Source of the DNA: Clostridia bacterium
Lineage (GTDB): Bacteria > Bacillota > Clostridia > Christensenellales > Aristaeellaceae
Direction: 5' to 3'
Assembly (NCBI GenBank): GCA_017512985.1
Contig: JAFWEJ010000003.1
Location: 186,001 to 250,000, forward strand
Length of the DNA stretch: 64,000 bases
The translations under genes and the position numbers were made by a program. Below the pieces are notes generated by a model. It was not told the origin of the DNA. It was given only the letters and a program-made list of their open reading frames with translations, and did not search any database. Shown here piece by piece: positions 35,863 through 50,171 of this stretch; position 1 is the stretch's first letter, and each line of letters starts with the position of its first letter.

Positions 35863-35878
35863 TTGTCTCACCCTCCCC

Positions 35879-36580
35879 TTATTCTTTCCGCGGGTCAATC
35901 CACTTGACCGCGCCGTCTTCAGCCTTGAACCGGCCGTAGGTGCCCAGGTTCTTCTCGTACGCTTCATTGGGGCTCATGCCCTTCTTGATGGCGTCCATCA
36001 TCTTGCCCAGGCTCAGGAACTGGTAACCGCAGACCTGATCGTCCTTGTCCAGGGCCATCTTGACCACATAGCCCTCGGTCATTTCCAGGTAACGGGTGCC
36101 CTTTTCACGGGTGCCGTACATGGTACCGACCATGGAACGCAGGCCCTTGCCCAGGTCTTCCAGGCCGGCGCCGATGCGCAGGCCGTCATCGGAGAAGGCG
36201 CTCTGGGTCCGGCCGTACACGATCTGCAGGAACAGCTCGCGCATGGCGGTGTTGATAGCGTCGCACACCAGGTCGGTGTTCAGCGCTTCCAGGATCGTCT
36301 TACCGGGCAGGATCTCGCTCGCCATGGCGGCGGAATGGGTCATACCGGAGCAACCGATGGTCTCCACCAGCGCTTCCTCGATCACGCCGTTCTTGACATT
36401 CAGGCTCAGCTTGCAGGTACCCTGCTGCGGGGCGCACCAGCCGATGCCGTGGGTATAACCGGAAATGTCCTTGATCTCTTTGGCCTGGATCCACTTTCCT
36501 TCTTCAGGAATAGGTGCGGGACCGTGATTCGGGCCCTTCGCAACACAGACCATTTCTTCCACTTCTTTGGTGTATTGCAT
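35879..36580 (-). CDS. NifU-like iron-sulfur scaffold paired with GGGtGRT protein
   Basis: A 233-residue protein whose first 140 residues match NifU/IscU scaffolds: cysteine-bearing stretches GWCAPQQGTC, TIGCSGMTHSAAMASE and DLVCDAINTAMRELF. It is longer than IscU (about 130) and has a distinct C-terminal half (MTEGYVVKMALDKDDQVCGY) with further cysteines. No sulfur donor NifS/IscS or SufBCD gene is near, so it is probably not the housekeeping scaffold but part of a two-gene unit with the GGGtGRT protein downstream. What it builds or carries is unknown. Confidence 0.83.
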   Translation of the reverse strand: MQYTKEVEEMVCVAKGPNHGPAPIPEEGKWIQAKEIKDISGYTHGIGWCAPQQGTCKLSLNVKNGVIEEALVETIGCSGMTHSAAMASEILPGKTILEALNTDLVCDAINTAMRELFLQIVYGRTQSAFSDDGLRIGAGLEDLGKGLRSMVGTMYGTREKGTRYLEMTEGYVVKMALDKDDQVCGYQFLSLGKMMDAIKKGMSPNEAYEKNLGTYGRFKAEDGAVKWIDPRKE

Positions 36581-36618
36581 GTGACTCGGTTCCTCCTGTC
36601 TCAGGTTAATAGTGTATG

Positions 36619-36662
36619 TTGGTAACCAATTAAGTATAGCACATCAAACGATTACTGTACAA
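36619..36662 (-). promoter_or_regulatory. Promoter and palindromic operator of NifU-like/GGGtGRT pair
   Basis: Minus strand TTGTAC (36657-36662), 18-bp spacer, TATACT (36633-36638). The palindrome TTGGTAACCAA (36619-36629) covers the predicted start point, a good position for a repressor site. Confidence 0.55.
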
Positions 36663-36681
36663 CATTTTATTGTTCATTTGT

Positions 36682-37359
36682 TTACAGCGCCTTCATCACT
36701 TCGCGGATCGCCCGGAAGGCTTTTTCCGCACTGCTCTTCACATTCTTTTCGAAGTCCGCGCCGGTTCCGTCAAACGCGTCGCTGATGCATTTGATGCTCA
36801 GGCATCTTACGCCGCTGCGCTCGCATACCCGCGCGATCGCGGCCAGTTCCATCTCACAGATTCCGCAGCCGGCAGCCCGCAGCCGCAGTTTTTCCGCGCG
36901 GTCCTCCACAAATTTGTCTCCGCTGGCCACGGCAACTTTCCTGATCCCGGGAATCCGCTCCGTGACCAGTTTTACAAGTTCCGCGTCAATCGGGATAAAT
37001 TCATCCGGATATTCCTCATACTGGCCTTTTTTCACTGCCGGGGAAAAGGGCGTGACATCAAAATCATAATGCCACACTTTCTCCGCCACAAACAGGTCTT
37101 CAACCCTCAGGCCTTCCTCCAGCGCGCCGGTCACGCCGAAATTCAGGATGGCCTCACAGCCGTACTTCACAATCAGCAGCATAGTCGCGGCCGCCGCGTC
37201 GATCTCGCCGCAGCCGGACTGGACAGCATAGATCTCATGCCCTTCCATCCGGGTTTTATAGACGGTCTTCCCCGCCACGGTCTCCTCCATCCGCTCCTCC
37301 CCGCTCTGCAGGAAAGCAGCCAGTTCCCGTTCAATCGCAATCAGCAATCCGATCTTCAT
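36682..37359 (-). CDS. 5'-methylthioadenosine/S-adenosylhomocysteine nucleosidase family protein
   Basis: Cleaves adenine from MTA or SAH, clearing by-products of AdoMet use and linking to the methionine genes at 8628-12525. The 225 residues have the purine nucleosidase fold: LIAIERELAAF at the start, NFGVTGALEEGLRVEDLF, CEMELAAIARVCERSG and ISDAFDG, where the Asp is the usual catalytic acid. Length equals MtnN/Pfs. The MEMEGAA substrate motif is EMELAA here, so a phosphorylase-like or other nucleosidase activity remains possible. Confidence 0.83.
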   Translation of the reverse strand: MKIGLLIAIERELAAFLQSGEERMEETVAGKTVYKTRMEGHEIYAVQSGCGEIDAAAATMLLIVKYGCEAILNFGVTGALEEGLRVEDLFVAEKVWHYDFDVTPFSPAVKKGQYEEYPDEFIPIDAELVKLVTERIPGIRKVAVASGDKFVEDRAEKLRLRAAGCGICEMELAAIARVCERSGVRCLSIKCISDAFDGTGADFEKNVKSSAEKAFRAIREVMKAL

Positions 37360-37371
37360 TGATGATTCCTC

Positions 37372-37400
37372 TCACAAATTAATTATGAATTACGAATTGT
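37372..37400. repeat. Degenerate AT-rich repeat related to TTCACAAT/ATTGTGAA
   Basis: CTCACAAATTAATTATGAATTACGAATTG resembles the copies at 5726 and 38411 with mismatches in both arms. It lies between mtnN and tsf. Confidence 0.35.
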
Positions 37401-37438
37401 TGAAAAAAGGACTGTCCGCAGACAGTCCCTTTTTTCAA
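37399..37438. terminator. Terminator after tsf
   Basis: TTGAAAAAAGGACTGTC (37400-37416), loop CGCA, GACAGTCCCTTTTTTCAA; a long, nearly symmetrical bidirectional terminator. Confidence 0.88.
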
Positions 37439-37444
37439 CGTTTT

Positions 37445-38371
37445 TTACTTCTGCATCGCAGCGATCTCAGCGGCCAGGTCGTCCTTCCGCTTTTCGATGC
37501 CTTCACCGCGCTCGAAGCGGCTGAACTTCACAATGTCCAGCTCCGCGCCGGCAGCCTTGGCGATCTCGCCCATCAGGTTCTTGATGTTCTTGTCAGGATC
37601 CTTGACGAAGGGCTGCTCCAGCAGGCACACTTCCTTGTAGTACTTCTCGATCCGGCCTTCGACCATCCGGTCGACGATCTTCTCGGGCTTGCCTTCGTTC
37701 AGCGCCTGGGCACGAAGGATTTCCTTTTCCTTCTCCAGCTTGCTGGCGTCCACTTCTTCGCGGCGGACAGCTTCGGGCTTGGCGGCGGCGATCTGCAGCG
37801 CCAGGTCGTGGGCGAAGGTCTTCACTTCTTCGTTGCCGCGGCCGGCAGCGTCAGCGGCGACTTCGACCATAACGCCGACCTTGCCGCCCAGGTGGATGTA
37901 GGTGGAAACCACACCGGTGGTCTCATAGCGGCTGAAGCGGCGGATGGAGATCTTTTCTCCGATCGCCACGGTCGCGTCGCTGACCAGGTCGGAAATGGTC
38001 TTGCTGTTGTCGTCAACAAAAGCCTGGGCCATCAGGGCGTCCACGTCGGCGGGGTTCGCCAGGGCAACCTGCTTGGCAACCTTGTTGGCGAAGCCGATGA
38101 AGTTGTCGGTCTTAGCGACAAAGTCGGTTTCGCAGTTGACTTCCACGATCGCGCCGATCGTTCCGTCTTCGTTCGTATACTGGGCAACCACGCCTTCAGC
38201 GGCGATGCGGCTGGCCTTCTTGGCGGCCTGGCTCAGTCCCTTTTCACGCAGCCATTCAATGGCCTTGTCCATATCCCCGTCGCTCTCGACCAGGGCCTTT
38301 TTGCAGTCCATCATGCCGGCGCTGGTACGCTCGCGCAGCTCTTTAACCATAGCGGAAGTAATTGCTGCCAT
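37445..38371 (-). CDS. tsf: Translation elongation factor Ts
   Basis: Guanine-nucleotide exchange factor for EF-Tu. The 308-residue protein starts [20 protein letters not shown] and has the EF-Ts core [10 protein letters not shown] (phosphate-displacing loop), then two dimerisation-type subdomains. Length is normal for Bacillota. ATG at 38371 is the only start consistent with the family and follows GAGAGGA. It lies 70 bp after rpsB in the standard rpsB-tsf order. Confidence 0.97.
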
Positions 38372-38410
38372 ATCAATCAATCCTCTCTTATTCTTATAGT
38401 TGTGGAAGCA

Positions 38411-38435
38411 TTCACAATGAATTATGAATTGTGAA
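38411..38435. repeat. AT-rich inverted repeat TTCACAAT/ATTGTGAA, copy 2
   Basis: TTCACAAT (38411-38418) and ATTGTGAA (38428-38435) with a 9-bp loop GAATTATGA, in the rpsB-tsf gap. Same arms as 5726-5746. Confidence 0.6.
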
Positions 38436-38441
38436 TTATCA

Positions 38442-39212
38442 TTAAGCTTCGGGCGCTTCATCGACAGCGGGCTTCTCATCGGCTTCCGCTTCGGCGGCGG
38501 GGGCTTCTTCAGCTTCCGCTTCGTTCTGCTCGCCCTGCTTGCCTTCCAGCACAGCGTCGGCCAGCTTGCCGGCGATCAGCTTGACAGCGCGGATGGCGTC
38601 GTCGTTGCCGGGGATGACGTAGTCGATTTCGTCAGGATCGCAGTTGGTATCGACGATACCCACGATCGGGATGCCCAGGATGCGGGCTTCGGTCACGGCG
38701 ATGTGCTCTTTGCGGGGGTCCACAACGAACAGGGCGCCGGGGAGCTTCTTCATCTCGCGGATGCCGCCCAGGTTGGTCTCCAGCTTTTCCCGCTCGTGGA
38801 TCAGCTTGATGACTTCCTTCTTGGGGAGCACGTCGAACTGCCCGTTCTGTTCCATCTTGTCGATCTGGTTCAGGCGTTCGATCCGGGTGCGGATGGTCTT
38901 GAAGTTGGTCAGCATGCCGCCCAGCCAACGGTTGTTGACATAGAACATGTTGCAGCGCTTGGCTTCGGATTCGATGGATTCCTGGGCCTGCTTCTTGGTG
39001 CCGACGAACAGGATGCTTTTGCCTTCCATCGCGATGTCGCGGACGAAAGCATAGGCCTCATCAACCTTGCGGACGGTCTTCTGCAGGTCGATGATGTAGA
39101 TTCCGTTGCGTTCGGTGAAGATGTACTGCGCCATCTTCGGGTTCCACCGGCGGGTCTGGTGACCAAAGTGCACGCCGGCTTCCAGGAGCTGTTTCATGGA
39201 AATGACTGCCAT
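38442..39212 (-). CDS. rpsB: 30S ribosomal protein S2
   Basis: Structural protein of the small ribosomal subunit. The 256 residues begin [20 protein letters not shown] and contain [34 protein letters not shown] and [14 protein letters not shown], all typical S2. The last 35 residues are a Glu/Ala-rich acidic tail ([20 protein letters not shown]), longer than in most S2. ATG at 39212 follows AGGAGG. A structured leader may mediate autoregulation. Confidence 0.97.
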
Positions 39213-39236
39213 AGGGGTTACCTCCTCGTTATTTTC

Positions 39237-39301
39237 CACCCCTTTCCCTTTTGCGGCCGGCCACCGCGGTACGCGGCACAAGCAGTCGCAGGGAAAAGGT
39301 G
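39237..39301 (-). promoter_or_regulatory. Structured rpsB leader, possible ribosomal-protein autoregulatory element
   Basis: In the rpsB mRNA leader (minus strand) CACCTTTTCCCT (39290-39301) pairs with AAGGGAAAGGGGTG (39237-39250) with a G-U, closing a segment that contains the hairpin CCGCG-TAC-CGCGG (39264-39276). The structure ends about 25 nt before the start codon. Confidence 0.4.
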
Positions 39302-39314
39302 CGTAATCGGATGG

Positions 39315-39343
39315 ATTCTAACATACCTTTCCGCCAAAATCAA
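39315..39343 (-). promoter_or_regulatory. Promoter of rpsB-tsf
   Basis: Minus strand TTGATT (39338-39343), 17-bp spacer, TAGAAT (39315-39320). Confidence 0.7.
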
Positions 39344-39391
39344 GTTTTTCCCTTATATTTCTTTGGATACAGCGCCTTTTGTTTTTCTTTC

Positions 39392-39421
39392 TTTACTTTC
39401 TTCCGTTTCCAATGTTATAAT
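39392..39421 (+). promoter_or_regulatory. Promoter of rubrerythrin gene
   Basis: TTTACT (39392-39397), 18-bp spacer and TATAAT (39416-39421) with an extended -10 TG (TGTTATAAT). Confidence 0.65.
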
Positions 39422-39471
39422 CGTCGCAGGCAAGAGCCAGAAAAGAAAAAAAAATATTGGAGGTAAACATT

Positions 39472-40011
39472 ATGAAGTGGGTATGCCCCGTATGCGGATA
39501 CGTACATGAAGGACCCGAACCGCCGGAAAAGTGCCCGGTCTGCAAGGTTCCCGGTTCCAAGTTCATCAAACAGGACGGCGAAATGTCCTGGGCCGCCGAG
39601 CATGTGATCGGTATCGCCAAGGATGTTCCGGAAGAGATCAAGGCCGGCCTGCGCGCCAACTTTGAAGGTGAATGCACCGAAGTCGGCATGTACCTGGCCA
39701 TGGGCCGTGCCGCCGCCCGTGAAGGCTATCCGGAGATCGCGGAATACTGGAAGACCGCCGCTTTCGAGGAAGCTGAGCACGCCGCGAAGTTCGCGGAACT
39801 CCTGGGCGAAGTCGTCTCCCCCAGCACCAAGGAAAACCTGCGCGTCCGCGTGGAAGCCGAGAACGGCGCTACCCAGGGCAAGACCGACCTGGCCAAGAAG
39901 GCCAAGGAACTCGGCCTGGACGCCATCCATGACACCGTCCATGAAATGGCAAGGGACGAAGCCCGTCACGGCAAAGCCTTCAAGGGTCTGCTGGAGAGGT
40001 ATTTCAAGTAA
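39472..40011 (+). CDS. Reverse rubrerythrin
   Basis: Non-heme di-iron peroxidase protecting anaerobes from hydrogen peroxide. The 179 residues have the rubredoxin domain first ([10 protein letters not shown]...CPVCK, residues 4-25) and the ferritin-like di-iron domain second, with ligands in [18 protein letters not shown] and DEARHGKAF. Putting rubredoxin at the N-terminus is the defining feature of reverse rubrerythrins. ATG at 39472 is 8 nt after GGAGG (39459-39463); an upstream TTG would place that site inside the gene. Confidence 0.93.
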
Positions 40012-40116
40012 GCCGAAAAGCTATAGTAATTCAACGGTTTCAGAGGAATGGATATCTGCTTACAGCAAAGTCTTGAAAAGCCTGCAGAATCGGTGCCTCA
40101 GGCAACTGAACCTGTT

Positions 40117-40146
40117 GGGGAAAGGAAGAATCCTTTCCCCCGTTTT
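40117..40146 (+). terminator. Hairpin after rubrerythrin gene
   Basis: GGGGAAAGGA (40117-40126) and TCCTTTCCCC (40131-40140) pair perfectly with loop AGAA, followed by CGTTTTA. A modest terminator. Confidence 0.6.
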
Positions 40147-40160
40147 ATAAGGAGATAAAC

Positions 40161-40745
40161 ATGAAAAAAGCCATCCTGATTCTGCTCGTGTTCTGCCTGC
40201 TGCTGCCCTGCTCGGCGATATGCGAAGCCGCCGGAGACACAGAAGCAGAACAGTCCGCTCCAACACTGCATGATATCCGGTATTATTTTGAACACAAGCT
40301 GATCCCGCATGAGTTCTATACAAATGCCGGACAGTTCGTTCCTTTCATCCGGGAAAACGGAATCTTCGGTCTGTGGTGGAATTTCACACAGGGCAATGGA
40401 TTGGATCTTTACTATACGGAAACCCAGTTCTCAGCTCAGGAATTTCCCAGGGAGGACGGCCTCTTCCTGATGCTTCTGACATTCCCGAAGCCGGAATCCA
40501 ACCTGCTTTGCAGCCGGATTTGGCTCTGCCGTGATCCGGAAACAGACAAGGCCGGTGTTTTCACAGTTGAAATCGACCTGTTTATGGGCGAAGCCTGGTT
40601 CCTGTGCGGCTGGGATCCGAACGGCACCCACCTGAACTTTGGCGGTGCCTCCCCGCTGCCTGATCCGTCTGAAGCAGGGTACCGGGAAGCCCTGGACGCT
40701 GAAGCCGGGCAGGTCGTTGAACTGTTCAGGTCCGGCAGTTTTTGA
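40161..40745 (+). CDS. Small secreted protein of unknown function
   Basis: Not recognised. The 194 residues begin with a signal peptide MKKAILILLVFCLLLPCSAI and a likely cleavage near residue 24. A Cys at 22 does not sit in a clear lipobox. The mature part is rich in Trp, Phe and Tyr (GLWWNFTQGNGLDLYYTETQ, LFMGEAWFLCGWDPNGTHLN) and has a pair of cysteines (LLCSRIWLC), suggesting a small beta-sandwich outside the cell. AAGGAG lies upstream. The rubrerythrin terminator precedes it, so it may depend on read-through. Confidence 0.65.
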   Translation: MKKAILILLVFCLLLPCSAICEAAGDTEAEQSAPTLHDIRYYFEHKLIPHEFYTNAGQFVPFIRENGIFGLWWNFTQGNGLDLYYTETQFSAQEFPREDGLFLMLLTFPKPESNLLCSRIWLCRDPETDKAGVFTVEIDLFMGEAWFLCGWDPNGTHLNFGGASPLPDPSEAGYREALDAEAGQVVELFRSGSF

Positions 40746-40750
40746 TAAAC

Positions 40751-40935
40751 CGGCTGAACAGCTGCAAGCGAAAAATGCTTCCATCAGCCGGCAGCAGCAT
40801 TGCTGCCGGCGCAGCCTTATCTGCCCTGGCGCATTGACAAACTGCGCCCGGTCCGGGGATCATTTCGCCTTACATTTCACGAGGAAAAACAGCCCGGACC
40901 GGTTCGCAGCTGTATTGCGCCCTGCCGGGCAGATA
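40751..40935. repeat. Nested and competing inverted repeats (structured intergenic element)
   Basis: CGGCTGA (40751-40757) can pair with TCAGCCG (40784-40790), but GCCGGCAGCA (40787-40796) pairs perfectly with TGCTGCCGGC (40801-40810), so the two helices exclude each other. Then 40818-40935 folds into one long hairpin: TATCTGCCC with GGGCAGATA at the ends, GGCGCA with TGCGCC and CTGCG with CGCAG inside, and CCGGTCCGGG with CCCGGACCGG at the core, around a 37-nt AT-richer loop. No open frame here is credible. It could be a structured RNA, an attenuator for the next gene, or a small MITE-like element. Confidence 0.6.
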
Positions 40936-40983
40936 TGATACAACTGAACAGGGAAGAGCATATGAGCAAAGGAGGAGCAGGCA

Positions 40984-41922
40984 ATGGATCATACAGAGAA
41001 GCCGCGTCTTCGCGTATCCCGTTCCCTGGTAACGCTCCTCAGGAACCTGTTCTTTTACGCGCTTGTCCCGGGTTTGCTGCTGTGGCTCCTCGCCCGGCCG
41101 ATCGGAAACGCCGTCCGCGGGTCAGGCGCGGCTGCCTTCCTGATCCTGTCGGCCGCTTTGATTGCTGTAGTCCTGAACTGGCTTGTGTATAAACTGATCC
41201 GCCGGAAGCTTCCGTCGCTCCTGGTCTTCTCCCACGGCGTCCTCTGCCTGCTGGCTGTTGTGTTCGTCGAACACGACTCGCTCCCGGGCTCCTCTGCCCT
41301 GACGTCCGCCCTGGCGCTCATCGCCGGTTTTCTGGCGCTGCTGTGCCTGCTTCTGTCCAGTTTCTGGTTTGCCCGGCACAATACCCGGCTCACCCGTGTG
41401 ATCGCGGTCGGCCTGCGGATCGTTGTCGGCATGATCCTCTTCTTCATGGCTTATCAGATTATCCGGGATATTGAGGGTGAAAACGTGACCCGGGACACCT
41501 GGATCACACTGGCGATCATGGTTGTGACCGTCCTGGTCCGTTTTGCTCCCCGGATCCTGTCCGCTTTACGCCGCAAAGGGGCCGAGAACCGTGCGACCGG
41601 CCTGGCGGAAGGCCGGATCGTGCAGATCCTCGGGGAAACGCATCTGGACCTTGACAATGATCCCGTCACGCTCCAGCATGTCCGTGTACAATATACGGTA
41701 GACGGCGTTCCCTACGAAACACGGGGCGGAATCACCCGTTACGCAATCCTGAAGTTCGGCAAGGCCGCGCTGGTCGGCAGGATAATCCCCGTTTCCTATG
41801 ACCCTGCCAATCCGTCCGACGCGCATGTAAAACAGATCGACAGGCACTTTTTTGACGACAACCCCCAGCCGCCTCCGGAAGAAGCGTCCGGGGAAGAACC
41901 GGCGGATCCGGCGGATTCCTGA
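40984..41922 (+). CDS. DUF3592-like membrane protein
   Basis: A 312-residue protein with about six hydrophobic helices in residues 18-205 (for example LLRNLFFYALVPGLLLWLLA and RVIAVGLRIVVGMILFFMAY), followed by a soluble beta-rich domain. The latter (EGRIVQILG, VQYTVDGVPYE, GRIIPVSYDPANPSDAHV) resembles DUF3592 domains, where a protein-sequence pattern VxYDPxNP recurs. A Pro/Glu tail ends the protein. Function unknown. GGAGGAG precedes the ATG. A large inverted-repeat element lies directly upstream. Confidence 0.65.
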   Translation: MDHTEKPRLRVSRSLVTLLRNLFFYALVPGLLLWLLARPIGNAVRGSGAAAFLILSAALIAVVLNWLVYKLIRRKLPSLLVFSHGVLCLLAVVFVEHDSLPGSSALTSALALIAGFLALLCLLLSSFWFARHNTRLTRVIAVGLRIVVGMILFFMAYQIIRDIEGENVTRDTWITLAIMVVTVLVRFAPRILSALRRKGAENRATGLAEGRIVQILGETHLDLDNDPVTLQHVRVQYTVDGVPYETRGGITRYAILKFGKAALVGRIIPVSYDPANPSDAHVKQIDRHFFDDNPQPPPEEASGEEPADPADS

Positions 41923-41938
41923 CAGCCGCTGCCGGAAA

Positions 41939-44566
41939 CTATTCTTCCGGATTCCTTGCCTTTTTCCAGGCGTCCTTGTATAACCGCTCCAGTGAACGTT
42001 CTGTTCCGGGGCGGTAGTTTTTTGCCAGGTATTCCGCGATGCTGCCCTGTACGCCGGCGACCTCCCGGCGGAACTCCCGGGCGGAGGTCCTCAGTGCCTC
42101 ATTCCCCAAGGCGATCAGCTGCTCCGGCCGGTCGGACGTCACGACCCTGACCCGGGCGCGGCCGCGCGCCAGCAGGGTGGTTTTTTCAATATACGCGTCA
42201 GCCGTCTGGGCCTCTTTTGTATAGATCACATAGATGTTCCTGTATTTCTCCGCGGAACCGGGATTGCCTTTGACCTTGTAGGCGTCAAAGACCAGGATGA
42301 TCTCCCGGCCGGTCATGCCCGCATAATCGCACAGCAGGTCCGTCAGCTGCGTCCGGGCAGTTTCAAAGTTTTCCTGGAGCAGGTCCTTCCATTCTTCCCA
42401 GGCATAGAGCACATTATACCCGTCCACCAGCAGGATCTCCCTGTCCGGCGCCGGTCCGGACGTGTCTGCCTGTACGGGCTCCGCGGGCGCTTCCTTCGGC
42501 GCAGGCGCCATGATCCGGCGGGCTTTTGCAGGGCCGTATGTCTTTTCAAAGATAATCCGAAGCGTTTCCTCTTCTTCCGCTGTTCCGCGCGCCGCCGGCG
42601 TGCGGACGCGTGCAACCGGCTCCGCCGCCTGCTGCTTCATCTCTTTCAGCGGCAGGTGCATATACTGTTCCACCTGGTCCCAGGGGATTACGGTGCCCGC
42701 TCCGTGCGAGCAGAAAACGGAATCCGGCGGGTTCATCACATCCCGCAGCGGATCGTATCCCTTCTCCCGGATCACTTTCTCAGCTTCCGCGCAAGGCAGA
42801 TACGCGGAAAACGCGGCGGTCATCCGGCCGAGCCCTTTGGTCTGGGCGCTCATTTCCCGGGCGTATTCCCGGCAGGCGGAAGCGGGCACGGTAGCCCGGA
42901 TCCGCCGGAACCCGTCCTCCGCTTCCTCCGGTCCTTCCGGTTTTCCGCCCATCAGCGACAGGTCGTTCATGATCCGCCCGAGGTTTTCCTGCGGCGCGGT
43001 GATCTCCAGGGCCAGGTACGGCTCCAGCAGTACGCTCCGGGCTTTCATCAGTCCCTGGCGGACCGCCCGGTAGGTTGCCTGGCGGAAATCCCCGCCTTCG
43101 GTGTGCTTCAGGTGGGCGCGCCCGGCAATCAGCGTGATCCGCATGTCCGTGAGCGGCGCGCCTGTCAGGACGCCGCGGTGCACTTTTTCTTTCAGATGGG
43201 TCAGGATCAGGCGCTGCCAGTTCAGCGCCAGGTCGTCTGTGGACACGTCCGTGTCAAACACCATGCCGCTGCCGGGCGGGAGCGGCTCCATCCACAGGTG
43301 GACCTCCGCGTAATGGCGCAGCGGTTCATAATGGCCCACGCCTTCCACCGCCTCCGCAATGGTTTCCCGGTACAGCACGCTCGTCTCCCCGAATGAAATC
43401 CCAAGGCTGAAGCGGTCTTTCATCTGCCTGCGGAGAACTTCCAGGTAAACGTCCCCCATGGAATGAACCCGTATCTCCCGGCGCGCTTCAATAAACTCCG
43501 CCTGGATCAGCGGCTCCTCTTCCGTCAGCGCCTGCAGGCAGTCCAGCACCCTGTGCAGGTCCTCTCCCGGTCCGGGAATCACCCTGCAGGCATAGCATGG
43601 ACGCAGGGTCTGCCCGCTCCTGCGGCGCTCCGTGCCCAGGCCGTCCCCGGGCATCGCTTTGGTCAGGCCGGTCACGCAGCACAGTTCCCCGGCAGCCGCC
43701 CGGGGCACGGACGTATACCGCGCGCCGGAATACTGCCGGATCTCCGCGATCTTTTCTGTCCAGGCTCCGTCGCCTTCGCCGCCGCCCATCTGGTCCCGGG
43801 CCTTCAGTTCGCCGCCCGTCACCTTCAGGAAGGTCAGCCGGTTTCCCTGCGGATCCCGCGCGATCTTGTACACCCGCGCGCCGAACTCCTTCGGCCATGT
43901 CCGCTCCTGCGCAAAGCCCGCAAGAAAATCCAGCAGCGGTTCGATTCCTTCGTTCCGCAGCGCCGCGCCGAAGAAACAGGGAAACAGTTTCCGGTCCCGC
44001 ACCAGCGTGCGGATCCTCTTTTCCGGGATGCTCCCTTCCCGCAGGTACAGGTCCAGGCAGGCTTCGTCGCACATCGCGGCTGCCTCTGCCGGGTCTTCCG
44101 TAAAATCGGCAATCCGGTCTGACAGCGCGTTGAGCGCGGAAATCATTTCTTTCCTGGTCCCCTCATACCTGTCTGTTTTGTTTACAAACAGGACCACCGG
44201 CACGCCGCTGCGCTCCAGCAGCTTCCACAGCGTGCGCGTATGGGGCTGGGCGCCTTCCGTCGCGCTGATCACCAGCACCGCGGCGTCCATCACGCTGATC
44301 GCCCGCTCCGTCTCTCCGGCAAAATCCGTATGCCCGGGCGTATCCACCAGCGTGATCGCCGTTTTGTTCCAGACCAGCCGCGCCTCTTTGGAAAAAATGG
44401 TAATGCCGCGTTCCTTCTCCATCTGCTCCGTATCCAGGAACGCGTCCCCGTGATCCACGCGGCCCTGTTTCCGCACGGCTCCGCTGAGAAACAGCATGGC
44501 TTCGGACAGGGTGGTCTTGCCCGCGTCCACATGGGCGGCCAGGCCGACCGTCAGGCTCTCCGCCAT
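41939..44566 (-). CDS. TetM-like ribosome-binding GTPase fused to a Rae1/YacP-type NYN ribonuclease
   Basis: Residues 1-640 match the EF-G-like ribosomal protection family: G1 AAHVDAGKTT, switch RGITIFSK, VDTPGHTDF, NKTDR, the EF-G domains II-V and the closing FCSHGAGTVIPWDQVEQYM. A linker (~650-705) with ETLRIIFEKTYGPAKARR leads to residues 707-850, a NYN-type nuclease close to Bacillus Rae1 (YacP): LLVDGYNVLYAW, ILVFDAYKVKG, YTKEAQTADAYIEK, VVTSDRPEQ, GNEALRTSAREFRREV. Acidic residues for metal binding are all in place. Rae1 is known to cut mRNA in the ribosomal A site, so the fusion suggests GTPase-driven delivery of a nuclease to ribosomes. A tetracycline-resistance role should not be assumed. 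Confidence 0.88.
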   Translation of the reverse strand: MAESLTVGLAAHVDAGKTTLSEAMLFLSGAVRKQGRVDHGDAFLDTEQMEKERGITIFSKEARLVWNKTAITLVDTPGHTDFAGETERAISVMDAAVLVISATEGAQPHTRTLWKLLERSGVPVVLFVNKTDRYEGTRKEMISALNALSDRIADFTEDPAEAAAMCDEACLDLYLREGSIPEKRIRTLVRDRKLFPCFFGAALRNEGIEPLLDFLAGFAQERTWPKEFGARVYKIARDPQGNRLTFLKVTGGELKARDQMGGGEGDGAWTEKIAEIRQYSGARYTSVPRAAAGELCCVTGLTKAMPGDGLGTERRRSGQTLRPCYACRVIPGPGEDLHRVLDCLQALTEEEPLIQAEFIEARREIRVHSMGDVYLEVLRRQMKDRFSLGISFGETSVLYRETIAEAVEGVGHYEPLRHYAEVHLWMEPLPPGSGMVFDTDVSTDDLALNWQRLILTHLKEKVHRGVLTGAPLTDMRITLIAGRAHLKHTEGGDFRQATYRAVRQGLMKARSVLLEPYLALEITAPQENLGRIMNDLSLMGGKPEGPEEAEDGFRRIRATVPASACREYAREMSAQTKGLGRMTAAFSAYLPCAEAEKVIREKGYDPLRDVMNPPDSVFCSHGAGTVIPWDQVEQYMHLPLKEMKQQAAEPVARVRTPAARGTAEEEETLRIIFEKTYGPAKARRIMAPAPKEAPAEPVQADTSGPAPDREILLVDGYNVLYAWEEWKDLLQENFETARTQLTDLLCDYAGMTGREIILVFDAYKVKGNPGSAEKYRNIYVIYTKEAQTADAYIEKTTLLARGRARVRVVTSDRPEQLIALGNEALRTSAREFRREVAGVQGSIAEYLAKNYRPGTERSLERLYKDAWKKARNPEE

Positions 44567-44606
44567 TCTGTTTCCCCCTTCCTTTTCTGCTTTTCAGATG
44601 TCAGAA

Positions 44607-44635
44607 AGTATAACAGTATTCCCGTCCTTTGTCCA
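44607..44635 (-). promoter_or_regulatory. Promoter of TetM-like/Rae1 gene
   Basis: Minus strand TGGACA (44630-44635), 17-bp spacer, TATACT (44607-44612). No leader peptide or attenuator like that of tetM is apparent in the 40-nt leader. Confidence 0.5.
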
Positions 44636-44644
44636 TTTGAACGC

Positions 44645-44673
44645 TTGACGAATCCCGCCGCATTGCTTATGAT
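44645..44673 (+). promoter_or_regulatory. Promoter of rubredoxin-thrH
   Basis: TTGACG (44645-44650), 17-bp spacer, TATGAT (44668-44673). Confidence 0.7.
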
Positions 44674-44736
44674 GAAGACAGCGGAGGAACCGCGTCTGCC
44701 GGTTCTTCAGATAAAAACAGAAAGGATGTATGAATC

Positions 44737-44889
44737 ATGAAGTACGAATGTCCCTGCGGCTATATCTATGATCCTGAAGTCGGCGATCCCGAAGGCGGTA
44801 TCGAACCCGGCACGGCCTGGGAAGATATCCCGGAAGACTGGGTTTGCCCCGTCTGCGGCCTGGGCAAGGACGCATTCACTCCCGTCTGA
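44737..44889 (+). CDS. Rubredoxin with a shortened N-terminal CxCG knuckle
   Basis: A 50-residue iron-binding electron carrier, likely donating to rubrerythrin or other peroxide/oxygen reductases. Everything after residue 8 is classical rubredoxin ([38 protein letters not shown]). The first knuckle, however, reads C5-P-C7-G instead of the usual CxxCG, so one residue is missing between the two iron ligands. AAAGGA lies about 10 nt upstream. thrH follows 14 bp later. Confidence 0.9.
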
Positions 44890-44903
44890 GGCAGGTATAA
44901 AGT

Positions 44904-45503
44904 ATGAACATTGTATGTCTGGACCTGGAAGGCGTCCTGGTTCCTGAAATCTGGATCGCCTTTTCCCAGGCGAGCGGTATCCCCGAGCTGAAACGCACGA
45001 CCCGGGACGAGCCTGATTATGACAAGCTGATGAAATGGCGGCTGGGCATCCTGCGGGAGCACGGCCTGGGACTGAAGGATATCCAGGCGACAATCGCCGC
45101 CATCGATCCCATGCCCGGCGCGAAAGAGTTCCTGGACACCCTGCGCAGCGAGACCCAGGCGATCATCCTGTCCGATACCTTTACCCAGTTCGCTTCTCCC
45201 CTGATGAAGAAGCTGGGCTGGCCCACGATCTTCTGCAACGAGCTGGAAGTCGGGGAAGACGGCATGATCACCGGTTACCGCATCCGGGTGGAAAAGAGCA
45301 AGCTGTCCACCGTCAGGGCGCTGCAGAGCATCGGTTTTGAAACCATCTCCGCCGGCGACAGCTTCAATGATCTGGGCATGATCCAGGCCAGCAAGGCCGG
45401 TTTCCTGTTCCGCTCCACGGAGCAGATCAAGAAGGATTATCCGCAGTATCCTGCCTGTGATACCTATGACGAACTGCTCGCGCTGATCCGCAGCGCGCTG
45501 TAA
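44904..45503 (+). CDS. thrH: ThrH-type phosphoserine phosphatase / homoserine phosphotransferase
   Basis: HAD-family enzyme that dephosphorylates phosphoserine and can move the phosphate to homoserine. The 199 residues match ThrH closely: nucleophile Asp7 in CLDLEGVLVPEIWIAF (DxE rather than DxD, as in ThrH), KRTTRDEPDYDKLMKWRL, Ser/Thr motif LSDTF, Lys in EKSKLSTV, and the acidic motif AGDSFNDLGM. It probably supplies serine or threonine synthesis. Cotranscribed with the rubredoxin gene, with no obvious functional link. Confidence 0.92.
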   Translation: MNIVCLDLEGVLVPEIWIAFSQASGIPELKRTTRDEPDYDKLMKWRLGILREHGLGLKDIQATIAAIDPMPGAKEFLDTLRSETQAIILSDTFTQFASPLMKKLGWPTIFCNELEVGEDGMITGYRIRVEKSKLSTVRALQSIGFETISAGDSFNDLGMIQASKAGFLFRSTEQIKKDYPQYPACDTYDELLALIRSAL

Positions 45504-45519
45504 ATCCCAAAAACACGGC

Positions 45520-45546
45520 CGGGAGAGCTCACGCTCTCCCGGCTTT
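45520..45546. terminator. Bidirectional terminator between thrH and the 605-residue gene
   Basis: GCCGGGAGAG, loop CTCACG, CTCTCCCGGC, followed by TTTTC on the plus strand and CGTGTTTTT on the minus strand. Confidence 0.8.
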
Positions 45547-45551
45547 TCATA

Positions 45552-47369
45552 TCACATTCTTGGTTTCGGCTGCCCGGATTCATCCTGCGCTTTCCGCAGG
45601 CCCGCGATCCGGTACAGGTCATACCGGCCCGGTACGGTCCGGACTTCAAACACCGTCTCCCCGTTTTTCCTGTACAGCGGTTCGATGCGGATTGCTTTAC
45701 CGGTAAGGAAATTCTTCCCGAGCGGCATCTCCAGCGCTTCCGCCTCCCCGGCCACATGAACCAGGATGGAAGCCGGCTGTGCCTGGCTGGTGGAATAGGG
45801 ATAGACGATAAAGGTGCCGTTGTCATAGGGAAAAAGGCTGACGCCCGCGCGGCTTTCCAGGTACACGCCGCCCGCGGGGAATTCCCTGCGGATCCGGGTC
45901 AGCGCTTTGCCGGGCAGTTTATACAGGTCCGGGAAACTGTCCGGCACAGCCAGCGTCCACATCCGGCCCTTTCCGTATGTATCCCGCAGCAGGATGCCGA
46001 AACTCTCCTCCGACTCCGCCACCTTGACCAGCGCCCAGGTCGCGTTGTTCCGGAACTCGCACACCGGGATCCCGATCTCCTCCGTGCCCTTCGGATACTC
46101 CACGACAGGCCTTTCGCCGGCAGTTTCCACCCGGTAGTTCCGTCCGCGGATCCTCCGGCCGGTGAAACGGATTGACGTCATGCGCTGGATCCCGCGGTCC
46201 ATCGTCGCTTCCAGGAAACCGCTGGTCACCAGCGCCTTGCCGCCTGCCGCCACATATCTCTCCAGTTTTTCCACCACGTCCGGATCGCAGGCGGAAGAGC
46301 GGGTCAGCAGGATTGAATCCACCTGGTCCGGCCAGTAAGGCGTCAGCATCACCGGCAGGCCGCACATGCCCAGGAAGTCCTGGATATTGTCTTCTCCCTG
46401 GCAGTTGTCCGGCAGGTAGCACATCATGCCCACAGGGTTCCCGCAGTGGTCCAGCGCCTCGTCCAGCCTGTCCAGGTGCCAGCCCAGCGGCGGTATGAAG
46501 GGATTGTCCTCCAGCGCCTGGAAGCAGAACATCATCATCTCCTTCGGTTTGGAGAACGCCGTCAGGAAAGCCTGTTCCAGGTACTGCTCCGTAATGTGGA
46601 TATCAAAGGGATCGAACCAGCCGCCGCCGTTATGGCCCGGCCACATGTTCTCAAAATAAGTCATCAGGGAATAACTCAGGTACCGGGGCAGGTGCTGGTC
46701 CGTAGTCACGGTATCCCGGGCTTCCGTACCGGTATAGATCCGGTCAAACAGCTTCCGCTGGCCGGCGGGATTGTATCCGGTTTCCTGGTAGCTCTCCGCC
46801 CAGTTGGGATATTTGATCGTGATGCGGCATTCCGGATTGGACGCCTTTGCCGGGGCGATCACATCCTCCCGGCTGACCTTCTCCATCAGGTGCAGGCGGT
46901 ACGCCTTCCAGCTGCCGTCCGTGATCCCGTGTTCCCGGTTATAATCATCCCGGCCCCGGCGGCAGGCGTCACAGGTGCAGTTGGTAAAAAAGAAATCGTC
47001 GATGATGAACTCGTTAAAATGGCTGCCGATGAACGCGCTGGCATTCCGGAGTTCCGCCAGCATCTTTTCGTCGTTATAGCAGCAGGTGCCCATCAGCCGC
47101 TGTTTCGGTTCGTCTCCTGCCGGCGTCCGGACCGTGGTGGTCAACCCGCCGGCCACCTCCACCCCGTGCTTTTCAAACAGCTCTTTGCACAGCGCCACAT
47201 GCTCCTCATCTGCCAGGACGCTGTCGCGGTATGGCTCCAGATACACCTTGTCCGGGCGCATATAACGCTCAAAGAAACGGATCCCGTTCTCCAGCTTCTC
47301 CCTTTCCGCGCGTGCTGTCCCCTGGGCCACAAAGTAATACACCAGTTTGAAATTCCGATAGTTGCCCAT
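45552..47369 (-). CDS. Large cytoplasmic protein, possibly a glycoside-hydrolase-like TIM barrel
   Basis: Not recognised with confidence. The 605 residues have no signal peptide. The N-terminal 330 alternate predicted strands and helices (FKLVYYFVAQG, KVYLEPYRDS, HGVEVAGGLTTT, HFNEFIIDDFFFTNCTCDAC, ITIKYPNWAESY, MMMFCFQALE), like a TIM barrel; the acidic IIDDFFF and a CxCxxC cluster are notable. Residues ~335-450 (VMLTPYWPDQ, LERYVAAGGKALVTSG) resemble the trimerisation domain of GH42-type beta-galactosidases, and a beta-rich C-terminus follows. A cre-like site in its promoter region supports a carbohydrate role. GGAGGA precedes the ATG. Confidence 0.55.
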   Translation of the reverse strand: MGNYRNFKLVYYFVAQGTARAEREKLENGIRFFERYMRPDKVYLEPYRDSVLADEEHVALCKELFEKHGVEVAGGLTTTVRTPAGDEPKQRLMGTCCYNDEKMLAELRNASAFIGSHFNEFIIDDFFFTNCTCDACRRGRDDYNREHGITDGSWKAYRLHLMEKVSREDVIAPAKASNPECRITIKYPNWAESYQETGYNPAGQRKLFDRIYTGTEARDTVTTDQHLPRYLSYSLMTYFENMWPGHNGGGWFDPFDIHITEQYLEQAFLTAFSKPKEMMMFCFQALEDNPFIPPLGWHLDRLDEALDHCGNPVGMMCYLPDNCQGEDNIQDFLGMCGLPVMLTPYWPDQVDSILLTRSSACDPDVVEKLERYVAAGGKALVTSGFLEATMDRGIQRMTSIRFTGRRIRGRNYRVETAGERPVVEYPKGTEEIGIPVCEFRNNATWALVKVAESEESFGILLRDTYGKGRMWTLAVPDSFPDLYKLPGKALTRIRREFPAGGVYLESRAGVSLFPYDNGTFIVYPYSTSQAQPASILVHVAGEAEALEMPLGKNFLTGKAIRIEPLYRKNGETVFEVRTVPGRYDLYRIAGLRKAQDESGQPKPRM

Positions 47370-47417
47370 CTGCCAGGTCCTCCGTCAGTCCTTTGATTTG
47401 CCTGTTTTTCATGCGAT

Positions 47418-47433
47418 TTTGCAAACGATTACG
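47418..47433. promoter_or_regulatory. cre-like catabolite-repression site
   Basis: TTTGCAAACGATTACG matches the Bacillus cre consensus WWTGNAARCGNWWWCA at 15 of 16 positions. It lies just downstream of the predicted start of the 605-residue gene, where bound CcpA (or another LacI-type regulator) would block elongation. Confidence 0.6.
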
Positions 47434-47446
47434 CTGTTGTGGGGAT

Positions 47447-47475
47447 ATTATATCTGTTTTTTCATGAATGCGCAA
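47447..47475 (-). promoter_or_regulatory. Promoter of the 605-residue gene
   Basis: Minus strand TTGCGC (47470-47475), 17-bp spacer, TATAAT (47447-47452). Confidence 0.65.
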
Positions 47476-47505
47476 GTTTTCCTGATTACATGAAGAAAAG
47501 CAGCC

Positions 47506-47534
47506 TTGTGTTTTACGGGCGGATAGTGTATGAT
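47506..47534 (+). promoter_or_regulatory. Promoter of DUF1858 gene
   Basis: TTGTGT (47506-47511), 17-bp spacer, TATGAT (47529-47534). Confidence 0.6.
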
Positions 47535-47566
47535 GTGCCCGTAAATGAACGAAGGAGGTCTTTCCC

Positions 47567-47779
47567 ATGGCTGAACAGTATGTTACCGGTGAAACGCTGG
47601 TTGGTGAAATCGTGACCAAATATCCCGAGACGGTGGAGATCCTGCTGTCCATCGGCATGCACTGCCTGGGCTGCCCGGCTTCCCGCGCCGAATCCCTGCA
47701 GGACGCCTGCGCTGTCCACGGCATCCCCGCTGAACAGGTGATCGAAGCCATCAACGAAAAAATCGCCGAAAACAAATAA
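47567..47779 (+). CDS. DUF1858 domain-containing small protein
   Basis: A 70-residue protein of the DUF1858 family, frequent in anaerobes. The body TLVGEIVTKYPETVEILLSIGMHCLGCPASRAESL includes the conserved MHCLGCPAS motif; its two cysteines (CxxC) could bind metal or take part in redox chemistry. In other genomes the domain is often attached to hybrid-cluster or nitrite-responsive proteins, from memory. AAGGAGG lies 8 nt upstream. It stands alone with its own promoter and terminator, so it is expressed independently. Confidence 0.88.
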   Translation: MAEQYVTGETLVGEIVTKYPETVEILLSIGMHCLGCPASRAESLQDACAVHGIPAEQVIEAINEKIAENK

Positions 47780-47797
47780 CCCGGTTCGGGTTCAAAG

Positions 47798-47826
47798 GCC
47801 GGAGGGAGAATTCCCTCCGGCTTTTT
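47798..47826. terminator. Terminator after DUF1858 gene
   Basis: GCCGGAGGGA (47798-47807), loop GAAT... then TCCCTCCGGC (47812-47821) and TTTTTC. Confidence 0.85.
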
Positions 47827-47837
47827 CGTTCTTTTGT

Positions 47838-49559
47838 TCAGGTTCCCGGCTGCATCGCCGTCAGGCTTTCATAGGTCACGCCGTATTTCTCGGCGATATC
47901 CCGGGCAAAGGACTGTCCCTCCGGCGGGGCGATGACCATCCGGAAGGAATGCTCCTTCCCCTTTGTCTCCGCCACAAGGGAAACCGCCTTCCCCTGCGTC
48001 CCCTCCGTGTTGATCACCGTGTCCAGGTCCTGCGCCAGCTTGTGCATGTGCGTGTTATAGATCGTGCGGCATCCCCGGCCGAGGATCGCCCGCACGGCGT
48101 CCGCCGCGATAAAGTACCCTTCCTCAAACGAGGTGGTGGAGAAGGTTTCGTTCAGCAGCAGCAGGCTGTCCGCCGTGCACCGGAGGAACAGTTCCCGGAA
48201 CCGCCTGCATTCCTCGCCCAGCCGGCCCAGGTCCAGCGTCTTGTCCTCGTCCGCGGGAAAATGCGTCAGCACGCTGTCTACCGGATCGTAAACGAAACGG
48301 TCCGCCGGAACCCGGATCCCGCTCTGGGCGAGGATAAAGAGCTGCCCGGCTGCCTGGGTCACCGTGGTCTTGCCGCCGCGGTTGGCGCCGGTCAGGATAT
48401 AAACCCGCTTTTCCGCGTCAAACGCCAGGTCGTTCGGCACGGTCGTCTCCGGCCGGCCGTTATCGATCAGTTTCAGGTTATAGAACCCTTCCGCTTCCAT
48501 GCCTGCTGCTGCGTCCCGCTGCGTCCTGGCCTGCGGTTTGCAGAAGTGCCATCCGTCCTGCTGTTTTTTCTCAATATACTCTGCCCAGCGGGTATAGAAC
48601 ACCAGTTCCGGGATCAGGTCCGCCATCTCCCGGACGCTGGTATTCATGTACTGCCCCAGGGTTTCCTTCAGCCTCCTGGAAATCCGGGAAGTCAGCATTG
48701 TCGCGGCGCTGTCCATCTGGCGCGGTACGTTGGCCAGGCCGTCCGCTTCAGGAATCCGTGCCAGCGACATCGCCGCCAGCGGGTTCCGCAGGACCACAGC
48801 TGATTCGGCCAGCTGGCTCACGGCCCCCAGCAGGCCCACATCCGTATTGGCCGGATAGAACGTGCTGCTTCCGTTCCAGTCCGCTTCCTTCCGGATCTCG
48901 TCCCTGGGCGTTACGGAGGACAGGAAATTTTTCAGCAGGCCGGATTTTGTAAAAGGCTTCGCGTTCACGGTAACCAGGCCCATGCTGACGGCTTCAAAGC
49001 GGCTGTTCAGGTTTACGCCGACCGTCAGGCTGCGGATTTCCGACGCGGATACCCGCATCTCCTCCACATCCTTTTTCAGCGCCGCAAAACCCTGGTCCCG
49101 GTAGATCCGGTCCACCGTATCCCGAAGGGTTGTCAGCCCTTCCGAAACCAGGTCTTTTTCCGAAAGGCACTCCCGGATGGCTTCCACCGTCAGGATATAA
49201 TCGTGGTATTCCTCCAGCCGGTGCATCAGATCCCAGATGCCTGCTTCGTCTCCTTCATGCCGGTTCACCACGCCGTAATCATAGAACATCTTGATCCTGT
49301 CCAGCAGTTTTGCCATCCGCTCCCGGATCTCCGGATGGCGCAGCATGTCCTCAAAAACGTCGCTGCGGAAAGCGGCCACCTGTGGGTCCGACGTCAGGCT
49401 CGCCATCACCCGGCGCAGCAGCGGAACCTCCTGGGGCTGCGACGCCACTTTTTCCGTCAGCGCGTCCAGTCCGAGATCGTGCCAGCTTTCCTCCGGAATT
49501 TCGTGGTATACAACCTCATCCTGCCGGGGAAAAAGAATGCTCAGTTTGGATTGTTTCAT
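47838..49559 (-). CDS. MutS-family ATPase, divergent
   Basis: The 573 residues hold a helical lever/core region (residues 30-330) and a C-terminal MutS ATPase domain. Walker A reads TGANRGGKTT (MutS: GPNMGGKST), Walker B LLLLNETFSTTS (MutS: LLDEIGRGT), and the His loop YNTHMHKLA. The DNA mismatch-binding and connector domains of MutS and the Smr nuclease of MutS2 are missing. The change of Walker B Asp to Asn is unusual while the catalytic Glu is kept. Probable role in DNA- or ribosome-structure recognition is unknown. ATG at 49559 follows AGAGGA. Confidence 0.83.
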   Translation of the reverse strand: MKQSKLSILFPRQDEVVYHEIPEESWHDLGLDALTEKVASQPQEVPLLRRVMASLTSDPQVAAFRSDVFEDMLRHPEIRERMAKLLDRIKMFYDYGVVNRHEGDEAGIWDLMHRLEEYHDYILTVEAIRECLSEKDLVSEGLTTLRDTVDRIYRDQGFAALKKDVEEMRVSASEIRSLTVGVNLNSRFEAVSMGLVTVNAKPFTKSGLLKNFLSSVTPRDEIRKEADWNGSSTFYPANTDVGLLGAVSQLAESAVVLRNPLAAMSLARIPEADGLANVPRQMDSAATMLTSRISRRLKETLGQYMNTSVREMADLIPELVFYTRWAEYIEKKQQDGWHFCKPQARTQRDAAAGMEAEGFYNLKLIDNGRPETTVPNDLAFDAEKRVYILTGANRGGKTTVTQAAGQLFILAQSGIRVPADRFVYDPVDSVLTHFPADEDKTLDLGRLGEECRRFRELFLRCTADSLLLLNETFSTTSFEEGYFIAADAVRAILGRGCRTIYNTHMHKLAQDLDTVINTEGTQGKAVSLVAETKGKEHSFRMVIAPPEGQSFARDIAEKYGVTYESLTAMQPGT

Positions 49560-49596
49560 GGTGTTTTCCTCTTTGCTGAAGGTATATTCGGCTTTG

Positions 49597-49625
49597 ATTA
49601 TATCCGATCGTCCCTTCCGCGTAAA
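49597..49625 (-). promoter_or_regulatory. Promoter of MutS-like gene
   Basis: Minus strand TTTACG (49620-49625), 17-bp spacer, TATAAT (49597-49602). Confidence 0.55.
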
Positions 49626-49697
49626 GCCCGCTGTCCTCCCGGATGACAGGGCGTTCCGCCTGTGATACAATATCCCCTGCCGGAAGGAGGGACGCCC

Positions 49698-50171
49698 GTG
49701 GGAAAACAGGATAAAACCAACTGCATGCGTGTGCTGGAGAGCAAAAAAATCGCCTATACGCCGCACCTGTACGAAGCGGATCCTTCCCTGTCCGGGGAAG
49801 ATATCGCCCGTATCCTCCGGGAGGAGCCCGCCCAGGTTTTCAAAACCCTTGTCACCGTCGGCAAGCCCCAGAGGTACTATGTGTTTGTGATCCCCGTCAA
49901 TGAAGAGCTGAACCTGAAAAAAGCCGCGTCCGCCGTCGGTGAAAAATCAGTCTGCATGATTCCCCAGCGGGATCTTCTCCCCCTGACCGGCTACGTCCAC
50001 GGCGGCTGCTCCCCGATCGGAATGAAAAAGCGCTTCCCTTCGTATATTCATCAAAGCGCTGGAAACCTCTCCCGGATCTTTGTCAGCGCCGGCCGCGTCG
50101 GCTGCCAGGTGGAACTGTCCCCGGCCGATCTGATCCGCGTGGCGGAACTGGTCCCGGCAGACCTTGTCTGA
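49698..50171 (+). CDS. ybaK: Cys-tRNA(Pro) deacylase, YbaK/EbsC type
   Basis: Hydrolyses mischarged Cys-tRNA(Pro), a proofreading step in translation. The 157 residues match YbaK: KIAYTPHLYEAD, VFKTLVTVGKPQRYYVFVIP with the substrate Lys, LNLKKAASAVGEKSV and GYVHGGCSPIGMKKRFP. GTG at 49698 is chosen because AAGGAGG lies 7 nt before it; an upstream in-frame start lacks a site. Monocistronic as far as can be seen. Confidence 0.92.
   Translation: MGKQDKTNCMRVLESKKIAYTPHLYEADPSLSGEDIARILREEPAQVFKTLVTVGKPQRYYVFVIPVNEELNLKKAASAVGEKSVCMIPQRDLLPLTGYVHGGCSPIGMKKRFPSYIHQSAGNLSRIFVSAGRVGCQVELSPADLIRVAELVPADLV

Follow-up and report, generated by a model that had tools for sequence, protein, structure and literature searches.

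A translational GTPase joined to a Rae1-type nuclease as a candidate replacement for free Rae1 in Clostridia

The fused protein and its closest described relatives

Fusions of a tetracycline resistance (Tet)-like GTPase to a nuclease domain have been in print since Atkinson 2015 (PMC4342817), which described Tet proteins of ten Clostridiales species with a YacP-like NYN domain and raised possible tetracycline resistance via an RNase, with the function left untested there. TetM and TetO bind the ribosomal A site, and the TetM loop Ser508/Pro509/Val510 is the region that dislodges tetracycline (PMC7456112); the reported substrate of Rae1 is A-site mRNA (PMC12320835), and S1025 is a named Rae1 target (PMC11780869). 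Here we analyze a gene of this fused architecture in a 64,000-nucleotide stretch of a Clostridia bacterium genome (Aristaeellaceae; assembly GCA_017512985.1, contig JAFWEJ010000003.1, positions 186,001 to 250,000; hereafter the window). The architecture and the bacterial group are those of the Atkinson 2015 fusions, matched by description: a Tet-like GTPase carries a C-terminal YacP-like NYN domain, and the nearest named relatives carry clostridial names. Atkinson 2015 filed these fusions as Tet proteins, whereas the present tests oppose Tet membership and favor replacement of free Rae1, a reading that is better supported than resistance.

The gene occupies a single intact frame on the minus strand, 875 codons plus a stop with an ATG start; plus-strand frame 1 across the same interval is interrupted by stops. 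Its parts are as follows.

41939..44566, minus strand: complete fusion gene, Tet/EF-G-like GTPase, linker and NYN_YacP (Rae1) nuclease (frame, Pfam, NCBIfam and PDB comparison)
43913..44554, minus strand: G domain, residues 5-218, with HVDAGKTT, DTPGH and NKTD intact (Pfam GTP_EFTU, 1.4e-50; conserved in 97 fused relatives)
43643..43885, minus strand: domain II, residues 228-308 (Pfam EF-G_D2, 21.8 bits, below the 27-bit cut-off)
43388..43600, minus strand: domain III, residues 323-393 (Pfam EFG_III, 23.1 bits, below the 27-bit cut-off)
43040..43378, minus strand: domain IV, residues 397-509 (Pfam EFG_IV, 1.2e-18)
43100..43114, minus strand: domain IV tip loop, residues 485-489, H-L-K-H-T, in the position of TetM Y-S-P-V-S (alignment)
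42782..43033, minus strand: domain V, residues 512-595 (Pfam EFG_C, 1.3e-16)
42656..42757, minus strand: conserved C-terminal extension, residues 604-637 (alignment)
42434..42655, minus strand: variable linker, residues 638-711 (length and substitution-rate comparison)
42533..42571, minus strand: conserved island in the linker, residues 666-678, consensus D-K-E-L-x-x-I-F-E-R-T-Y-G (97 fusions)
41963..42433, minus strand: NYN_YacP/Rae1-type nuclease domain, residues 712-868 (Pfam, PDB match, invariant residues)

The nuclease half scores 146.3 bits against NYN_YacP (PF05991; gathering cut-off, 24.6), and its PDB matches are to Bacillus subtilis YacP/Rae1 alone, in two entries (5mq8, E value 8e-29; 5mq9). 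The B. subtilis protein has a homologous NYN domain with identical acidic residues; it is a free protein of some 170-180 residues without a GTPase. Residues D715, D761, D790 and D812 align to Rae1 D7, D53, D81 and D104 (5mq8; Rae1 numbers counted by hand off the alignment), which we take to be metal ligands, and these four residues together with N718 are identical in 97/97 fused and 26/26 free aligned proteins. These data support the assignment of the NYN half as a true Rae1 relative with an intact active site. Upstream of it, Pfam places the G domain and domains II to V in the order of an EF2-type translational GTPase, with domains II and III as sub-cut-off matches, and compared with PDB sequences the whole protein matches EF-G, TetM (3j9y, 5e-68) and TetO. 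The motifs HVDAGKTT and DTPGH represent G1 and switch II, respectively, and stand intact together with NKTD.

An earlier reading of this DNA, made from its letters and open reading frames (the sequence-only reading), had claimed one frame joining a GTPase to an NYN nuclease with clear resemblance to Bacillus Rae1, and intact GTPase motifs and metal-binding acidic residues. All of this stands, and the Pfam domain order that it proposed to verify, NYN_YacP following domain V, was recovered; the NYN domain is present as described, but its placed end at residue 850 is too short, since the domain reaches about residue 868. Neither of the doubts raised with that reading holds: the acidic residues are kept on alignment with Rae1, and an origin of the fusion by misassembly or frameshift is ruled out, as the fusion recurs in independent assemblies.

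The extension at residues 604-637 is common to fused and unfused members of the GTPase subfamily and is not aligned in TetM and EF-G rows. C592, C619 and H637, which hardly vary among fused and unfused members alike, may form a metal site. From H637 to the DGYN motif the spacing is 66-145 residues across 97 fused proteins. Within the linker island, I672 is found in 94/97 fusions and E668 in 90/97, the window having T at the latter position; the unfused sister GTPases end before this island. In a comparison with the close relative L094, the ratio of nonsynonymous to synonymous substitution rates (dN/dS) is 0.14 for the GTPase, 0.26 for the linker and 0.12 for the NYN domain, and because of the low values in the GTPase and NYN parts both halves look to be under purifying selection.

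Fused and free Rae1 across genomes

The main result comes from comparing genomes: the fusion and free Rae1 are ALTERNATIVES across a class sample. This sample comprises 341 genomes, with NYN_YacP in 218 and the subfamily GTPase (E value 1e-190) in 135. A fused-type GTPase (117 genomes) or a long NYN frame (G197, 937 residues) is found in 118 of them, and 117 of these 118 have an NYN match, the exception (G191) being a fragment in a 65%-complete genome; the best GTPase frame is below 780 residues in 4/118 (G111, G191, G283 and G386). Among the 117 fusion genomes with NYN, G388 alone also has a free Rae1. Two NYN matches occur in five class genomes, namely G388, three in which the second match lies below the cut-off (G196, G260 and G301) and one with two fusions (G193, 61% complete). 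A genome of the genus sample, G007, has the fusion and a partial NYN match.

The chromosomal position of free Rae1 tells a similar story. RlmB and/or SigH adjoin 28 of 29 distinct free rae1 genes, the exception being in G302, whereas the NYN domain studied here is fused and encoded elsewhere in the genome than the rlmB-yacP-sigH slot. SigH was searched in 13 fusion genomes and in G119, and an adjoining RlmB was also found in 8 of the 13. Together with G388, inspected separately, this gave nine fusion genomes with a readable RlmB-SigH junction: seven lack a yacP piece (E value 0.05), G388 has an intact gene, and G085, which carries the fusion, retains a remnant of free yacP in two pieces between rlmB and sigH (L223, 1040-1400). 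The window's own genome has some 160 bases between its RlmB and SigH matches, and the slot is without yacP; a weak YacP-like piece (48 residues, 33% identity, E value 0.008; L225) lies beyond sigH and not in the junction. Genus g55 offers a contrast within one genus, in that G119 lacks a subfamily GTPase and its slot is occupied by free rae1, while five congeners carry the fusion. Because of the exclusion counts, the emptied slot and the g55 contrast, we favor the view that free Rae1 has been replaced, in a lineage-specific manner, by a functional equivalent. The gene thus behaves as a chromosomal housekeeping gene replacing free rae1, and the stress-response device envisaged in the sequence-only reading was not borne out.

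The fusion is widespread. NYN_YacP is matched in 34/37 genomes of the window's genus, within frames of at least 880 residues in 32 genomes and of 383 and 662 residues in the other two; the three genomes without a match are 57-66% complete. None of 24 genomes from elsewhere in the window's order showed the fusion; five of them have NYN_YacP in frames of 143-340 residues. A phylum sample of 199 genomes contains 109 with a match, always exactly one, and 108 of these exceed the family cut-off; 12 of the 108 lie in frames of 877-914 residues, and 9 of the 12 are in genomes outside the window's class. Named genomes hold at least 590 relatives, of which the best 80, ranked by likeness to the fused query and so not a sample of the family, are all fusions (77 complete), with record titles that include Lachnospiraceae, Oscillospiraceae, Ruminococcus flavefaciens FD-1, Intestinimonas, Butyrivibrio, Anaerovorax and many metagenome bins. 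The genus itself holds two quite different fusion versions (L002, L003 and L009 versus L015 and L016), whose NYN domains score about 134-147 versus about 323 bits to that of the window, which suggests transfer or an over-wide genus. Interrupted copies, each in two frames on one contig, were seen in G280 (L079, 6041-8755) and G111 (C2, 126183-128758) and are either pseudogenes or sequencing errors.

We next consider origin. A first GTPase tree places 40 fused and 13 unfused members in one subfamily apart from Tet and EF-G rows (Shimodaira-Hasegawa-like approximate likelihood ratio test (SH-aLRT), 100), and the 40 fused rows fall to one side (SH-aLRT, 96). Separately, a chemoreceptor-like row from L069 that had strayed into the first alignment was excluded from the analyses built on it. 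A second tree with more rows puts the window's lineage in an unresolved fork with other fused and unfused clades; its row NEWU_L216 comes from a fusion truncated at a contig end (G283) and is not an unfused member. The NYN tree unites all 50 fused rows (95/82, bootstrap not settled), and a single free gene, that of G302, nests among them. This gene (L194, 5287-5808) starts exactly at the linker-NYN boundary and lies outside the usual slot, and G302 also carries an unfused sister GTPase elsewhere; judged from sequence, it is probably a fission product of the fusion. A single origin of the fusion appears likely from these trees.

Proposed mechanism and competing explanations

We consider it probable, if by no means certain, that the protein is this organism's Rae1 in tethered form, with its own GTPase carrying an endonuclease for A-site mRNA to paused ribosomes. 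By analogy with other EF-G paralogues, the GTPase would dock at the factor-binding site of ribosomes with an empty or blocked A site; GTP hydrolysis would then free the A site of domain IV, and the nuclease, on a linker of some 70-80 residues, could move in and cut the mRNA, after which exonucleases would clear the truncated message and transfer-messenger RNA (tmRNA) would rescue the ribosome. A tmRNA is present in the window's genome. Handover after GTP hydrolysis over a long linker is the simplest such scheme, because the site that domain IV would fill is also the one that Rae1 would need. Some of the ribosome binding that free Rae1 does for itself would in this way fall to the GTPase. Clostridial free Rae1, which sits beside rlmB and/or sigH, has a conserved C-terminal tail in which an L (26/26) and an R (25/26) are almost invariant; measured on the free-Rae1 profile, to which 25 of the 26 free proteins scored had also contributed, 20 or more C-terminal positions are missing in 56/97 fused and in 0/26 free proteins. 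Such loss is expected if the tether assumes the docking task, and the tail may help free Rae1 bind and be dispensable when the nuclease is tethered. The more specific proposal, that of a GTP-gated A-site endonuclease in which a translational GTPase of a distinct, non-resistance subfamily inspects or clears a stalled A site and hands over to tethered Rae1, such a surveillance device on one polypeptide having ousted free Rae1 from its housekeeping role across much of the Clostridia, we put forward tentatively and rate at somewhat below an even chance.

Several observations weigh against these proposals. G388 carries the fusion and yet still has free Rae1 in the slot. The counts ignore relatedness, some genomes are incomplete, and the GTPase count scored three candidates per genome, missing at least G197 and G228. 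An unfused subfamily GTPase is found in 19 class genomes (18 plus G228), 12 with free Rae1 and 7 without any NYN, and a sister GTPase kept without NYN implies that the GTPase must be useful alone; conversely, 82 of the 94 free-Rae1 genomes without the fusion show no subfamily GTPase. Among genomes without the fusion, the link between sister GTPase and free Rae1 is not significant (12/19 versus 82/199; Fisher p, 0.09), and strict dependence of one on the other was rejected as unsupported after this recount. Before frames were checked, the same association stood at 11/18 versus 91/206 (p, 0.22), with 102 genomes taken as free Rae1; the check reclassified G197 as a fusion, G199, G240, G274, G368 and G378 as likely cut fusions, and G228 as an unfused member, placed G307 below the cut-off, and gave G390 (342 residues) as unclear. 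Domain IV and Rae1 would compete for one site, so handover must be assumed, and both it and GTP gating are steps that we infer. Loss of the C-terminal tail could have nothing to do with docking.

Because the sister GTPase lacks Rae1 in 7/19 genomes and free Rae1 lacks the GTPase in 82/94, the halves are separable, each being of use in the absence of the other. The GTP-driven delivery that the sequence-only reading had suggested is still a hypothesis. The same counts, and a linker that is long and variable, speak for a protein with two functions, in which the GTPase relieves ribosomes of an endogenous stall or shields them from it (a peptide, a drug-like molecule or an EF4-like role) and the NYN domain contributes an independent Rae1 activity, joined on solely for dosage or localization, without GTP gating. 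The sister protein, at about 650 residues and mostly from family f66 (L174-L186, L204-L210), shares the subfamily, tip loop and extension of the fusion and lacks linker and nuclease, occurring with or without free Rae1. Set against this, the fused state recurs in many families with both halves conserved, the linker contains a conserved island, and fused and unfused GTPases are never found in one genome (0 observed versus 6.6 expected if independent, with three candidates per genome and relatedness ignored). We regard the two-function explanation as unlikely, though a serious contender.

Two further explanations were considered. The one proposed in Atkinson 2015 (PMC4342817), a tetracycline resistance factor whose RNase domain is a new resistance mechanism, draws on the overall EF-G/Tet domain order and on tet_protect (NF012153) being the best NCBIfam model. 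The score on that model, 381.5 bits, falls well short of the curated cut-off of 775; five fused or unfused relatives score 398-458, versus 878 for TetM (L091) and 892 for the G308 Tet protein (L188). TetM shares H-x-E-P and D-F-R letters in domain IV. Identity to TetM/TetO is about 29% across two thirds of the protein, and TetM/TetO have another tip loop, lack the C-terminal extension and the nuclease, and are common on plasmids. The TetM Y-S-P-V-S loop aligns to H-x-K-H-T in fused and unfused rows; in fusions, H485 is found in 94/97, K487 in 95/97, and H488 and T489 in 97/97 each, and the same letters are present in 13 or 14 of 14 unfused rows (13 subfamily members plus UNF_L187, a non-member that groups with Tet proteins). 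Copies covering at least 80% of the protein occur in just 2/1420 matching plasmid records and 2/115 matching phage records, and the NYN match in 34/37 genus genomes, the promoter-like site described below and the lack of an Rfam leader match likewise run counter to resistance. We therefore judge tetracycline resistance very improbable, in agreement with the sequence-only reading, which had doubted it. The older YacP prediction, cited in PMC4342817, would make the fusion an rRNA/tRNA maturation nuclease steered by a ribosome-bound GTPase; with the characterized relative Rae1 described as attacking A-site mRNA (PMC12320835), this is the least credible of the explanations considered. As a separate observation, two unannotated faecal 'Bacteriophage sp.' records, MT835563.1 (L093) and MT835514.1, match 97% and 95% of the fusion, as either contamination or phage cargo.

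Genomic setting and implications

The tethered-Rae1 proposal concerns a gene whose neighborhood, DUF3592 downstream and a divergent HAD-type hydrolase gene upstream, gives no sign of an operon. No conserved operon partners were found: the biggest flanking-gene cluster covers 13 of 97 fused loci, with mixed orientations. The gene likely has its own promoter.

44607..44635, minus strand: likely promoter, TGGACA-17-TATACT, the second hexamer preceded by TG, 40 bases upstream of the fusion ATG

Three promoter-like sites lie within 3.2 kb, counting both strands, where shuffling expects 0.4, and the site of the fusion gene is largely preserved in the close relative L094. A search for an RNA leader gave no Rfam match at gathering scores within window positions 35000-50000. 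Elsewhere in the window, a MutS-type ATPase gene (MutS_V) lies at 47838-49766 on the minus strand, about 3 kb from the fusion, and positions 1-36000 contain many long frames antisense to other long frames, a common feature of GC-rich DNA that does not speak for genes.

A literature search on NYN, YacP or Rae1 with a translational GTPase, which did not cover the main Rae1 papers, showed no further paper on the fusion and no functional test of it among the papers listed. Little is defined, to our knowledge, about how Rae1 picks out the ribosomes on which it cuts mRNA. The natural fusion, found in many gut and rumen Clostridia and joining Rae1 to a GTPase that should dock at the same site, would be a ready-made probe, since GTPase-dead and nuclease-dead versions could separate recognition from cutting. 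On the present findings, these chromosomal genes should also not be classed with tetracycline resistance proteins, and the RefSeq name of a relative, WP_320690501.1 from Monoglobus pectinilyticus ('translation factor GTPase family protein'), is already neutral.

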